Shown here: piece after piece, positions 3,432 through 64,000 of the stretch
Layout: every line of letters begins with the position of its first letter
Position numbering within the stretch: position 1 is the first letter of the stretch
NCBI RefSeq assembly: GCF_900637055.1
Contig: NZ_LR134338.1
Location: 5,424,501 to 5,488,500 of the forward strand
Direction of reading: 5' to 3'
DNA: 64,000 nt
Source of the DNA: Brevibacillus brevis
GTDB taxonomy: Bacteria; Bacillota; Bacilli; Brevibacillales; Brevibacillaceae
Made by a program: the position numbers and the translations under genes
Notes under the pieces: model-generated
What the model was told of the DNA's origin: nothing
Seen by the model: the letters and a program-made list of their open reading frames with translations, nothing else
The model's database searches: none

Positions 3432-3881
3432 ATGCAAAGCCAAGTCAATTTTGAAGAACTTTATATACAACTCCAACGAAAAGTTTCGGCTGAGTCACAC
3501 AAGCGTCTAGACCCGCTCGTGTCAGGATCACAAGCCATGCTTTTGCGAATTTTAGATATGAACGGTCCGCAGAAGGCATCTTCTATTGCAGAACGTATGA
3601 ATATTACCCCCGGAGCCGTTACGAGTCTCGCTGATAAATTGATTGCTTGCGGCTATGCCACGAGAAACCGTGACAGTACGGATCGCCGCGTCGTGCAACT
3701 GGACATAACCGATCAAGGAAAAGACATCCTGCGGCAATACAAAGCCGTGGTGAGGAGCACGATTGAACAGTTTTTTGCAGGCGTATCTGATGAAGACAAG
3801 CAACACTTAGTCCGCATCTATCACCAGGTTCTGAAGAATATAGAGCAACAAAGAGAGGAGCATCAAGATTGCAACAACTGA
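3432..3881 (+). CDS. MarR family transcriptional regulator
   Basis: A 149-residue winged-helix regulator. The recognition segment SIAERMNITPGAVTSLADKLIACGYATR and the wing DSTDRRVVQLDITDQG are classic MarR features. The ends are helical, as expected for the dimerisation interface. It overlaps the following efflux gene by 13 bases. It therefore probably represses its own operon and is released by a compound that the transporter exports. The start has GGAGAGGG upstream. Confidence 0.92.
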   Translation: MQSQVNFEELYIQLQRKVSAESHKRLDPLVSGSQAMLLRILDMNGPQKASSIAERMNITPGAVTSLADKLIACGYATRNRDSTDRRVVQLDITDQGKDILRQYKAVVRSTIEQFFAGVSDEDKQHLVRIYHQVLKNIEQQREEHQDCNN

Positions 3882-60439: not shown

Positions 60440-60665
60440 GTACTTCCATCCTCCTTTTTATTCCTGTACGTTTCATTATAGGGGAGAGTGGAAATTGTTA
60501 CAAATTGCTTTGTCATCTGCCATTGGAAAACCCACTGCGTTTACTTGTTTGATACACTAAACAGAACGGTTAAAAAACTCCGAAATTTATTTCGCATCCC
60601 GTGTCAGAAAATCCGTGAACCCGAAGTCTACACAGTACATCAACAAATCACGAGGAGTTTTTGCG

Positions 60666-62423
60666 ATGGATCACTTGATAATCAGGCCCAAGACTCATGA
60701 GGAGCACACCCAGATAGAAGACGAGACTTTGGTAGAACAGGCGAAAGCTGGGGATCAAGAGGCGTTTAGCGAGCTGGTCAGGCGCCATCGCTCCAAAGTA
60801 TACGGCTATGCACGGTCGTACACACAAGAAGCCTTTCTTGCCGAAGACATCGTTCAGGATGCTCTCATTCGCGCCTTTTTGCACCTTGGGACGCTGGTGG
60901 ACAGCCGACGTTTCCTTCCTTGGCTGCATCGGATTGTGCGCAACCAGGCCTACACACGGCTTTCGAAGGGTTCGCAAAAAAGGGAAACCGTCTTCTCGAG
61001 TCTGGGCAAACTAACGCATGAGCAGGAACCGACTGACTGGGAGGACCTCGATAGTATCTTGCACAGGCTGGGACGGTCTTGGTCACACTCTGCGCAGAAC
61101 AACAACCCCGAAGAGGTCATGGTGCGTCGTGAACTGTTTGAGACAATCAGGAGCCTGCTGTACTGCCTCAATCCTCGGGAGAGACGCATTGTGGAATCTC
61201 ACTTTTTTGATCATTTGGCCCCTCATGAGATCGCCCACATGTTCCAGATGTCCCAGGCAAACGTCTACCAAGTGCTATCGCGTTCTCGCAAAAAACTGCT
61301 TCAGGAAAAAACTCGTGTCGTTGTTGATCAATACATGAAGACGAGAAAGGTTGCGGGGAGTATGAAACAAGCAGTATTGAACAAACCAGAAGCATTCACG
61401 ATGCCTACTTGGGTTACTTGCGCAGCGGCACTATTCGGATTGGTAGAATCGAGCGAACGCAAAATGTCTTTGCCGATGATACTTGGCTTGAGCGGCCATG
61501 CCTTTCGCTTGACGATCGTGCCTGGAAATATCCATATTGCAGGCCCAACGATGTTTCACTTTCAGCGGGTCTTGCAGCAGGGTTTGAAAAACATGGGCTT
61601 TGAATCTCGTGCCGTCACCTCGTATCATCTATCCTGCGAACCAAGCATCAATGCCAATCAAGTTGCTCCCTCGCTATTGAGCCCGGAGGCACGCGAAAAG
61701 CGCCAGCTGTCTGTCCTCCTGCCAGAAGCATTGGAACTGGTCCACCGCTCCATCGACAAAGGGCATCCTGTGCTTGCTTGGGATCTGTTCATGCCAGAGT
61801 TCGGATTGATCTACGGCTATGATGATGAAAAAAGAGTGTTTTACGCAGGAGACAACTGTCGAAACGACAGTACCATTCCCTATGAAAACTTGGGGCGGGG
61901 TATCGTCGAGGAGTTGTTTGTCCTTGCCATCGACCGTGCGTTTCCGATCGACCAACGCACGATGCTCGCAAATGCTCTCCACTCTGCACTCGTTCATTAT
62001 CGTGGAGAAGAACCGCAGGACCCGAGCTGCGTCAATGGTCTAGCGGCCTATGCTGTTTGGCAGGAAGCCTATGAAAAGGGAACGGTTGAGCCGAATGGCA
62101 ACGCGTATACGACCGTGGTGAACGGGGATGCACGGCGCTATGCCTCTCTTTTCTGGAGCGAAATCGTTGATACGTGGACAGATTCTGTGTTTGATGAGGT
62201 CCGCCCACTGATGAAAGAAGCGGCTAGCGTGTACGGGGCGATTGCCGATGGCTTTGACACGTTAAGCAAGCTCTTCCCATTCCCTGCTGGGGGCGAGCCG
62301 AACGATGCGGAGCAAGGTAGGCAGGCTATTGCGTTGTTGAAGGCGATTGAGCGAAATGAACGTACTGCTGTATCCGTACTGGAACAAATACAGGCGGGGC
62401 TTGAGAATAAAATAGGAAAGTAA
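60666..62423 (+). CDS. sigma-70 family factor fused to a large BtrH-like C-terminal domain
   Basis: A 585-residue protein. The first roughly 215 residues are an ECF-type sigma factor: region 2 FSELVRRHRSKVYGYARSYT, SRRFLPWLHRIVRNQAY, then region 4 with HEIAHMFQMSQANVYQVLSRSRKKL. Most ECF factors end there. This one goes on for about 370 residues with a folded domain: LSLPMILGLSGHAFRLTIVP and LVHRSIDKGHPVLAWDLFMPEFGLIYGYDDE resemble the BtrH/C39-like fold of peptide-cleaving or acyl-transfer proteins. No membrane segment is seen. The ATG at 60666 has GAGGAG upstream. Role: probably a ligand- or signal-sensing sigma factor. Confidence 0.85.
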   Translation: MDHLIIRPKTHEEHTQIEDETLVEQAKAGDQEAFSELVRRHRSKVYGYARSYTQEAFLAEDIVQDALIRAFLHLGTLVDSRRFLPWLHRIVRNQAYTRLSKGSQKRETVFSSLGKLTHEQEPTDWEDLDSILHRLGRSWSHSAQNNNPEEVMVRRELFETIRSLLYCLNPRERRIVESHFFDHLAPHEIAHMFQMSQANVYQVLSRSRKKLLQEKTRVVVDQYMKTRKVAGSMKQAVLNKPEAFTMPTWVTCAAALFGLVESSERKMSLPMILGLSGHAFRLTIVPGNIHIAGPTMFHFQRVLQQGLKNMGFESRAVTSYHLSCEPSINANQVAPSLLSPEAREKRQLSVLLPEALELVHRSIDKGHPVLAWDLFMPEFGLIYGYDDEKRVFYAGDNCRNDSTIPYENLGRGIVEELFVLAIDRAFPIDQRTMLANALHSALVHYRGEEPQDPSCVNGLAAYAVWQEAYEKGTVEPNGNAYTTVVNGDARRYASLFWSEIVDTWTDSVFDEVRPLMKEAASVYGAIADGFDTLSKLFPFPAGGEPNDAEQGRQAIALLKAIERNERTAVSVLEQIQAGLENKIGK

Positions 62424-62430
62424 ACAGAAA

Positions 62431-62461
62431 GAAGTAAGGCGATTTATGGTCGCCTTACTTC
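62431..62461. terminator. bidirectional terminator inside the end of the opposing gene
   Basis: GAAGTAAGGCGA and TCGCCTTACTTC form a 12-bp perfect stem. The minus-strand stop codon of the YcdB-type gene (62444) lies within it, so its last codons are part of the hairpin. Confidence 0.88.
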
Positions 62462-64000
62462 TTTTAGGTTATTGCTCCATTCAAACTTCCCGCTTACTGC
62501 ATCTACGGTTGGCCAGCCCTTATAAGTATCAATTGTATAGACGAGCTGAAGATAAGGGGATTTTTTGCCATTGTAGGTGGGCCAGAAGTAGGACAGCTTG
62601 AGCGGAAGATTCTTTGCTGCCAGATCAGCAGCTTGCTGTGCAGTCACAGATGGTTTACGTACTGGAAGTCCGCCTTCCTCGTTCGGCATAGTTGGAGAGA
62701 AATATACGACTTGGCCGCTCTTCATTTCGATCACGACCCAATAATTGTGATCGAGCACAGGCAGACCATTTTGGAGCCTATGAAACCTGAATGAATAATT
62801 ATCTGTATGTCTTTCCTTAACCTTATTTAATTCCATCATCCAGTCGGCCAACACCGCAGGTTTATATGGATCGAATATCTCTACTTGCCATTCATTAGCC
62901 GAAATCGGAGCATACGATTCAAGGACGGCAATCGCTTTTTTTAGTGCTTCTTCCCTTGTCAATGGAATAGATAGATTTTCCTTTCGTGTCCAATCCATAG
63001 CATTGATAACCTGTCCAGTAGATTCGTCCACCGTAAGGAGAATATCCACCCCACCACGATCTGTCCAAGAATAAACGAAGTCTCCCCAAGTATTCCTTGC
63101 ATCATAGGGCATATTCGTGAGCTTTTTATCTGTTCCAAACAAATTCGTAATAATTTTCTCTGCCTCAGCTCGGTTTGAGACAATCAGTGAGTTCTCTTTT
63201 GGAGTGATCGTAATGTTCTTCACATTGACAGGATTTCGTTTTCCATCGTCTACGATCTCTAATCCGCTAGGCGCTTCAATCTGCTTTCCTGTTACAGCAT
63301 CTATAAATGGTGAAGTTCTCCATGCATATTGTATACTCGGTTTGCCGTCGCTCCCTTCCTGAACATATCCGTAGTCGAAATGATCGGGGGTGAATAACTG
63401 CTCTGTGATGGCTTCTGGTGCCAATGCCGATTTTGGATCAGGAACCTTGGTATCTTCCAAATCAAGTGGATGAAAAGACAAACTTAAAAGATGACCTTCG
63501 TAATCCGTGACCATGTATATGCCTGTCAGGATCCCTCTATCTACTTCCAAACCATTCAGCATAGCAGGATATTCTATGTACCGAAATCTGACTATCTCGG
63601 GACGCTTCTCCTTAATTTGCGATAATTTAGGATTACCTGTCATTTTCCGTTTATCTGACCATTGTACGGCGAGCAAATGTTTTTCTGCACGCTGCAACAA
63701 AATCTCGTCCGTTACTCTCCCTTTAGCATTCCAAATATCCAGGGCTGCGTTATAGTCGAGCATTTCCCCGGTTTCCCTATCAAAAACGAGAGAGGCTCCA
63801 ACGTACTCATCTTTTGGATGACTCATGTACAAGACTACTTCATTACCCGTCCTCAGTTTAACGGTTCGCACTGTCAACGTTTTTAATTCGGGCTCCAGCT
63901 CTTCTAAAGCAGCCACAATTTGAGCGGCGCCTTCTGGGAGGTTGATTTCTTCTGGAGCTGGGGCTGCTGTGCTTTTCAGGAGGATTTCAGGGCTTGCAGC
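62444..64000 (-). CDS. YcdB/YcdC-type (DUF4901) protein, cut by window edge
   Basis: The frame is open to the window end, so at least 518 residues are read and the N-terminus is missing. The visible part has repeated blocks that resemble the YcdB/YcdC (PF16244) family: NEVVLYMSHPKDEYVGASLVFDRETGEML, then TVDESTGQVINAMDW and AIAVLESYAPISANEWQVE. The last part, QAADLAAKNLPLKLSYFWPTYNGKKSPYLQLVYTID, is like the family C-terminal domain. Such proteins are usually secreted and of unknown function. The stop lies in a hairpin shared with the sigma gene. Confidence 0.85.
   Translation of the reverse strand, partial: AASPEILLKSTAAPAPEEINLPEGAAQIVAALEELEPELKTLTVRTVKLRTGNEVVLYMSHPKDEYVGASLVFDRETGEMLDYNAALDIWNAKGRVTDEILLQRAEKHLLAVQWSDKRKMTGNPKLSQIKEKRPEIVRFRYIEYPAMLNGLEVDRGILTGIYMVTDYEGHLLSLSFHPLDLEDTKVPDPKSALAPEAITEQLFTPDHFDYGYVQEGSDGKPSIQYAWRTSPFIDAVTGKQIEAPSGLEIVDDGKRNPVNVKNITITPKENSLIVSNRAEAEKIITNLFGTDKKLTNMPYDARNTWGDFVYSWTDRGGVDILLTVDESTGQVINAMDWTRKENLSIPLTREEALKKAIAVLESYAPISANEWQVEIFDPYKPAVLADWMMELNKVKERHTDNYSFRFHRLQNGLPVLDHNYWVVIEMKSGQVVYFSPTMPNEEGGLPVRKPSVTAQQAADLAAKNLPLKLSYFWPTYNGKKSPYLQLVYTIDTYKGWPTVDAVSGKFEWSNNLKEVRRP

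Follow-up and report, generated by a model that had tools for sequence, protein, structure and literature searches.

An ECF sigma factor of Brevibacillus fused to a BtrH/C39-like pseudoenzyme domain: a predicted autoregulated switch with an intact C39-like gene as partner

In Brevibacillus brevis, an ECF sigma factor joined to a large C-terminal domain probably works as a one-protein switch, in which an autoregulated sigma factor, governed in cis by a pseudoenzyme sensor, controls an enzyme-like protein of similar fold. The gene was analysed within a stretch of 64,000 nucleotides (the window) and by comparison with other genomes. In the handles used below, G stands for a genome, C for a contig, L for a locus, g for a genus and f for a family.

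The ATG-started frame 60666..62423 (+) was uninterrupted for 585 codons (Table 1), and the closest named relatives of its product, from B. formosus, B. fortis and B. porteri, were 93-95% identical. The NCBIfam model TIGR02937 (sigma70-ECF) spanned residues 32-214 with an E value of 5e-27, and the presence of Sigma-70 regions 2 and 4 together with the absence of regions 1 and 3 placed the protein among the ECF (group 4) factors. The initial annotation had stated that the sigma domains are complete by about residue 215 and that no anti-sigma gene is adjacent. Both statements agreed with the Pfam results, in which region 4 ended at residue 211, with about 370 residues after it, and neither flanking gene was recognisable as anti-sigma. 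One flank is a divergent 112-aa gene with no significant Pfam match. A convergent YcdB/DUF4901-like gene of 490-518 residues (window 62444-64000, -), with PepSY similarity below the threshold towards its end, continues past the end of the window.

Table 1. Positions of the fusion gene, its predicted promoter and its parts in the window
Feature	Position	Strand	Basis
Predicted self-recognised ECF promoter TGTCAGAA-N15-AGTCTA, 35 nt from box to ATG	60602..60630	+	Exact site
Ribosome-binding site GAGGAG	60652..60657	+	Sequence reading
Complete fusion gene (585 aa) encoding an ECF sigma factor with a BtrH-fold pseudoenzyme domain	60666..62423	+	ORF, Pfam, conservation
Sigma-70 region 2, residues 37-101	60774..60968	+	Pfam PF04542, E 8.3e-15
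Sigma-70 region 4 (Sigma70_r4_2), residues 160-211	61143..61298	+	Pfam PF08281, E 1.8e-6
Linker, residues 212-240, helical in low-confidence model; G393 gene split near linker end	61299..61385	+	
Predicted sensor: C-terminal domain of the BtrH/CtaG fold (residues 241-585)	61386..62420	+	Model and VIA
Thr251, place of catalytic Cys	61416..61418	+	Column counts; placement from borderline hhalign
Glu378, place of catalytic His	61797..61799	+	Column counts; placement from borderline hhalign
Asp396, probable third catalytic place, kept in 23/26	61851..61853	+	Placed by eye

The C-terminal part was found in 24 of 26 Brevibacillus genomes and lay within one open frame of 586-778 codons in all 24, so that the fusion is not an annotation artefact. 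The two exceptions in the genus were G010, which gave no match to the C-terminal part, and G020, in which the gene is broken; in this relic (L132, G020:C55:24000-31000) the promoter box at 3472 on the reverse strand is intact. In a wider class sample, the domain was held, fused or alone, by 53 of 398 genomes, and domains of about 345 residues were recognisable at 32-94% identity to that of the window. At L051:6100-7830 (reverse strand), the sigma part and the domain are in different frames, through either a real frameshift or a sequencing error.

Pfam and NCBIfam gave no match of its own for the C-terminal part at E <= 1, and beyond the sigma regions PADLOC, Pfam and NCBIfam returned nothing convincing for the domain or the whole protein. 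BtrH_N (PF14399, gathering score 29.7) did not match the window domain and matched one of 26 relatives at E 0.17. The SnoaL-like domain of ECF41 and ECF56 was absent from the C-terminal part (no Pfam match at E <= 1); the TPR repeats of ECF42 gave no match in the window protein, one of 26 relatives matching TPR_6 at 0.087, and no related enzyme was detected when the domain profile was searched against PDB sequences. Because the domain has no Pfam or NCBIfam match, the term BtrH/C39-like rests on fold comparison. The AlphaFold2 model of the domain alone (9 sequences) had a pLDDT of 69.8 and a pTM of 0.75, and that of the full-length fusion (9 sequences) a pLDDT of 49. With the domain model, Foldseek returned three AziU2-U3 chains (E 4.6e-4 to 9.8e-4), and VIA-align gave Z scores of 15.8 with AziU3/U2 (258 residues, rmsd 4.8, 12% identity), 13.3 with CcbD and 12.1 with CtaG, on a scale where, according to the tool, a Z of up to 13 is possible by chance for helical bundles. 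These three enzyme groups filled the top ten rows, and their matches cover the whole domain, all spanning approximately residues 11-351 of the 357 model residues. The comparison with the model of the domain alone supports a BtrH/C39-like overall fold, as the initial annotation had named it.

CcbD and CtaG are papain/C39-fold enzymes of antibiotic pathways that form acyl and amide bonds, and their fold is alike over nearly the whole domain. AziU3/U2, which we take to belong to azinomycin biosynthesis, is the closest structural match, but it is a biosynthetic complex with only 12% identity and no regulator. In the available part of PMC10318531, BtrH is described as an ACP:aminoglycoside acyltransferase and BtrH_N is positioned beside peptidase families C39 and C70.

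The upstream DNA of 21 fusion genes was aligned, and TGTCAGAAA and AGTCTA stood a constant distance apart, with a spacer that had diverged among the genes. A near-invariant box preceded all 27 fusion genes examined from Brevibacillus (24) and three near relatives (G031, G034 and P. chibensis). Among 42 systems comprising an ECF factor and the domain, 27 had this main box, 9 had a second form and 6 had neither. The second form, TG[TA][AT]AGA[TA]-N14-GCATC, occupied the same place in its 9 systems; this count is descriptive, as the pattern was widened after G393 and G074 had been viewed and the L051 site was located by its own letters. Five of the six box-less systems are g33 genes whose upstream C39-like gene bears the box, and the sixth is L054. 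Two TGTAAGAT-N-GCATC sites in G373 were rejected, being inside a sugar-binding protein gene. An autoregulated bipartite promoter, a usual but not universal trait of ECF factors, is well supported for the fusion gene by this comparison of sequences.

The motif was not enriched genome-wide, and its significance therefore rests on position and conservation. At up to two mismatches the own genome contained 19 sites versus 39 for the reversed pattern, and over 26 genomes the loose motif had at least 165 sites versus at least 273 for the reversed control. Five of the 19 own-genome sites had at most one mismatch and 14 had two. The sites 2497888- and 6717989+ (at most one mismatch) were dismissed as targets, both lying inside coding frames, and so was the exact TGTCAGAA-N15-AGTCTA site G000:C1:4601589-4601617 (+) (L066:1501-1529), which overlaps the 3' end of an opposite-strand NadR-like gene. 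Nearly the same spacer was found at the NadR-like antisense site in at least 11 Brevibacillus genomes; its preservation suggests another constraint, and the site may be an antisense promoter.

Of the five own-genome boxes in this class, one precedes by 42 nt a gene of 310 codons, approximately 470 kb away from the fusion (G000:C1:5014774-5015703, -); it has at most one mismatch. The product starts MLPYIGSGAYCYANSS and has weak BtrH_N similarity (E 7e-4), with a score of 20.3 bits against the gathering score of 29.7, which is below the cut-off. Its Cys-His-Asp set is intact (Cys11, His122 and Asp138). In a set of 11 such C39-like proteins, Cys11 was present in 10 and His122 and Asp138 in all; 9 of the 11 matched BtrH_N at E <= 1 (best 1.2e-6), and the g33 copy L144 had no BtrH_N match at E <= 0.01. 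NCBIfam gave one DarH_acyl match (BtrH-related) at 0.01 and one GapS2 match at 0.089 among the 11, and their profile retrieved AziU3-type chains from the PDB sequences at E 0.018-0.019. In the C39-like protein of L158 (G135), Ser replaces the catalytic Cys, and no fusion was detected in that genome.

The C39-like gene was found in 9 of 26 Brevibacillus genomes at 86-100% identity, the other 17 being without it. The class sample held 22 clear relatives, or 24 with the two weak matches in G302 and G373, which were excluded from the co-occurrence test. A box (12 of 13 positions) occurred 70-89 nt before the aligned start in 15 of the 22 genes, belonging to 9 Brevibacillus genomes, 5 g33 genomes and G031, and every one of these genomes has the fusion; in G031 the two genes are on separate contigs. 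The 7 unboxed genes came from 6 genomes with no detected domain and from G306. In the random control, which covered one strand of 12 loci, of which L007 and L033 at least contain true sites, 941 of 960 windows of 250 nt scored 7-9, and two control scores of 13 are probably true sites of the sampled loci. G005 and G018 each had an additional exact box, followed by a degraded second target gene.

Adjacency was observed as well. In genera g33 and g119 the C39-like gene directly adjoins the fusion: it was just upstream on the same strand in all five g33 genomes (from coordinates; G182 and G061 in detail), and in G306 the two genes overlap at the 3' end of the fusion. Genus g33 and family f4 may be Paenibacillus or its kin. 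Sixteen of the 22 genomes with a C39-like gene also held the domain (2.9 expected, P 4e-11, uncorrected for kinship), and both occurred within one genome in 4 of 9 genera (0.87 expected, P 0.005); g69 was not counted here, its domain and its C39-like gene being in different genomes (G156 and G135, respectively). The shared promoter and the adjacency of the genes thus indicate the same partner in separate lineages. Of the 15 boxed targets, 9 are from closely related Brevibacillus genomes, 5 from closely related g33 genomes and one from another genome, and because the genomes are related these counts overstate independence, promoter plus target representing three lineages and adjacency two. That the sigma factor would switch on both itself and the intact C39-like gene is well supported on this comparative basis. 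Intact-triad C39-like genes were also seen near an AraC-GyrI regulator at L159:638-2439, L162:1495-3430 and L163:1474-3735, where no ECF fusion was found; such fusion-less genes adjoin the regulator in G036 and G309 and are one gene apart from it in G303 (L163 likewise).

Thirteen further genomes, 12 of them Brevibacillus lacking the C39-like gene, were searched at up to one mismatch, giving 23 sites versus 9 control sites. Each of the 12 had one box of its own fusion, and together they had 9 other sites: 2 antisense to the NadR-like gene, 4 in long frames, 1 with no gene after it and 2 before plausible starts. With these sites so placed, no conserved second target is known in most Brevibacillus. 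Since most Brevibacillus have the fusion and not the C39-like gene, the conserved function must include something further. A one-mismatch box lies 73 nt before a thioredoxin-like gene (L177, G024:C21:158430-158458) and another 53 nt before a 283-aa gene (L184, G015:C43:115306-115334), each a possible target in one genome. In the f30 genomes and G156, an exact-match search retrieved only the own site.

The two parts of the fusion also occur as separate genes. At two loci of G393, 11-12 nt separate a sigma gene from the domain gene downstream of it, and genes of the GyrI-like, glyoxalase and Cass2-like kinds come next. The corresponding gap in G074 is 37 nt, and the domain gene there has a weak Cass2-like part at its end (E 3e-4, which does not reach the Pfam cut-off). 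These sigma factors were 47% (G393) and 43% (G074) identical to that of the window, whereas none of the 24 other sigma matches in its own genome exceeded 34%. A domain gene directly after the sigma gene is the order of classic ECF/anti-sigma operons; unlike the products of such operons, the window fusion has no predicted membrane segment (maximum hydropathy 1.3 over 19 residues) and no match to an anti-sigma family in Pfam. The initial annotation had proposed that the extra domain replaces the anti-sigma protein as a built-in sensor. The position of the domain gene in G393 and G074 agrees with the replacement, and sensing and inhibition are kept here as predictions. According to the initial annotation, the proposal would fail if the domain also existed on its own and left sigma activity unaffected. 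Stand-alone versions do occur, but a regulator gene adjoins 11 of the 13 such loci examined (sigma in 3, WYL-type in 7 and AraC in 1).

A recurrent unit of three genes, with an HTH/WYL-type regulator ahead of two domain genes in tandem, was seen in f4 at L056, L057, L058, L059, L063, L064 and L065. Of the five regulators scanned, those of L058, L064 and L065 passed the Pfam WYL cut-off and those of L056 and L063 were just below it; the remaining two (L057 and L059) were assigned to the WYL type by eye. In G341, the domain gene follows an AraC-GyrI regulator. Judged from gene order, the placement beside WYL-type or AraC-GyrI regulators at 8 of 13 loci would count for a sensor role. In AraC-GyrI/Cass2 regulators a small-molecule module is likewise coupled to a transcription factor, but the fold and the class of transcription factor differ from those of the window.

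The architecture, the self-promoter, the promoter or adjacency of the target, the split systems and the loss of catalytic residues described below were all established by comparison of sequences, and from them we infer the following course. The catalytically dead BtrH/CtaG-like domain would, most likely, bind a small molecule or an acyl or peptidyl carrier typical of such enzymes. The ligand-free domain would keep sigma-2 and sigma-4 inactive in the manner of an anti-sigma factor, and ligand binding would free the sigma part. The active factor would then transcribe from TGTCAGAA-N15-AGTCT promoters, its own among them, which would give positive feedback. Where present, the separate C39/BtrH-like protein with its intact Cys-His-Asp set would also be transcribed and, as a presumed active enzyme, act on the same compound.

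The shared promoter or location of the fusion and the C39-like gene would also be expected if the domain were a platform for protein interaction, with the sigma factor switched on or off, in a feedback loop, by contact with the C39-like protein or an acyl or peptidyl carrier protein instead of by a free small molecule. Structurally the domain comes closest to a chain of AziU2-U3, a complex of two proteins; tandem domain genes accompany the WYL-type regulator in f4 genomes, and, according to the entry title, the CcbD structure was solved with a bound PCP domain. We give this account a minor share of the probability, as 17 of 26 Brevibacillus genomes have no C39-like gene, most of these having the fusion, and the GyrI, Cass2 and glyoxalase neighbours indicate small molecules. 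A reversed sign is comparably improbable: the domain would then be an activator needed for activity, which a ligand or partner raises, as in the TPR extension of ECF42, which the available part of PMC8999054 describes as essential for activity. The domain is always fused in Brevibacillus, in keeping with such a need, but the split pairs, which have it in the usual anti-sigma position, speak against an activator.

The conserved residues of the C-terminal part, which the initial annotation had marked for inspection, were compared in 26 domains. The column of the catalytic Cys contained Ser in 17, Thr in 7, Ala in 2 and Cys in none, and that of the catalytic His contained Glu in 22, Gly in 2, Phe in 1, Gln in 1 and His in none; the Asp at position 396 was kept in 23. 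Cys occurred at the adjacent position 252 in 5 of the 26, and the domain also has a conserved strip, PEFGLIYGYDD. The hhalign comparison of the domain set with the C39-like proteins gave a probability of 54% (E 1.3e-4) with more diverse sets and of 0.6% with smaller alignments (26 fused-type domains versus 3 C39-like proteins), so that homology between the two is borderline and the Cys and His placements could shift by a residue. By its sequence the domain is not an active BtrH/C39-like enzyme, lacking both Cys and His in 26 of 26. BtrH, CcbD and CtaG have these catalytic residues, whereas the window-type domain does not and is instead fused or adjacent to transcription factors; PDB entry titles list the CtaG variants C11A, H128A and D144N and the CcbD mutant C19S.

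It is nevertheless conceivable, at a low probability, that the domain is still an enzyme, for example an acyltransferase with a Ser or Thr nucleophile, and that the fusion merely couples its expression to the sigma factor. The Ser or Thr that 24 of 26 domains have instead of Cys, and the retained Asp, would fit such an enzyme. So would the lone domain gene of G032 and G027 (L030:5626-6633 and L031:5714-6727), which lies with no adjacent regulator in a biosynthetic cluster of KASIII-type, ATP-grasp and PLP (ornithine/DAP) decarboxylase-like genes; the genes scanned were those of G032. This cluster resembles the butirosin side-chain pathway, but its domain has neither the catalytic Cys nor the His; the missing His in all 26 domains and the regulators beside 11 of 13 stand-alone loci also speak against catalysis. 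Control by the factor's own transcription alone, with the domain as a structural tail receiving no signal, is very improbable: the self-promoter is strong and conserved and such control exists among ECF factors (PMC8999054, available part), but some 345 residues stay recognisable and the pairing recurs with three classes of regulator.

ECF factors with regulatory extensions are already known. In the part of PMC8999054 available here, the extensions described are SnoaL, TPR, WD40 and Cys-rich or zinc-finger/TM types, none of them BtrH/C39-like as in the window. The window protein has in common with these factors the ECF core, the absence of an adjacent anti-sigma gene and a regulatory extension in cis, soluble or membrane-bound. 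Neither a BtrH/C39-like ECF extension nor a link to an intact C39-like protein was found in the literature searched, whose journal coverage was partial. Saccharibacillus sacchari, which we take to belong to Paenibacillaceae, is the source of the type of one further group. This group, ECF264, has an extension with another mechanism (PMC8999054, Table 2) and, as known here from that table entry, could be the same group as the fusion.

In summary, the one-protein switch with an inhibitory sensor in cis is the account we favour. As a wider and more tentative proposal, with somewhat less than even support, a retired enzyme fold may have become a general ligand-sensing domain in Bacilli, coupled to ECF sigma, WYL and AraC regulators, and the ECF form may switch on its intact fold relative upon sensing the compound on which that relative acts. 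This would close a sense-and-modify loop, and the compound might be an antibiotic of the peptide or aminoglycoside type. ECF factors rank among the major signal transducers of bacteria; according to the available part of PMC8999054, 15 of at least 26 ECF groups with extensions remain to be studied. The question of an in-cis sensor is directly testable here because there is an exact promoter prediction, a named target, natural split versions and target-free genomes. Should the domain prove to be a pseudoenzyme that binds a ligand, it would add a sensor family that occurs beside several classes of regulator and would indicate that these Bacilli have a modifying protein under inducible control.
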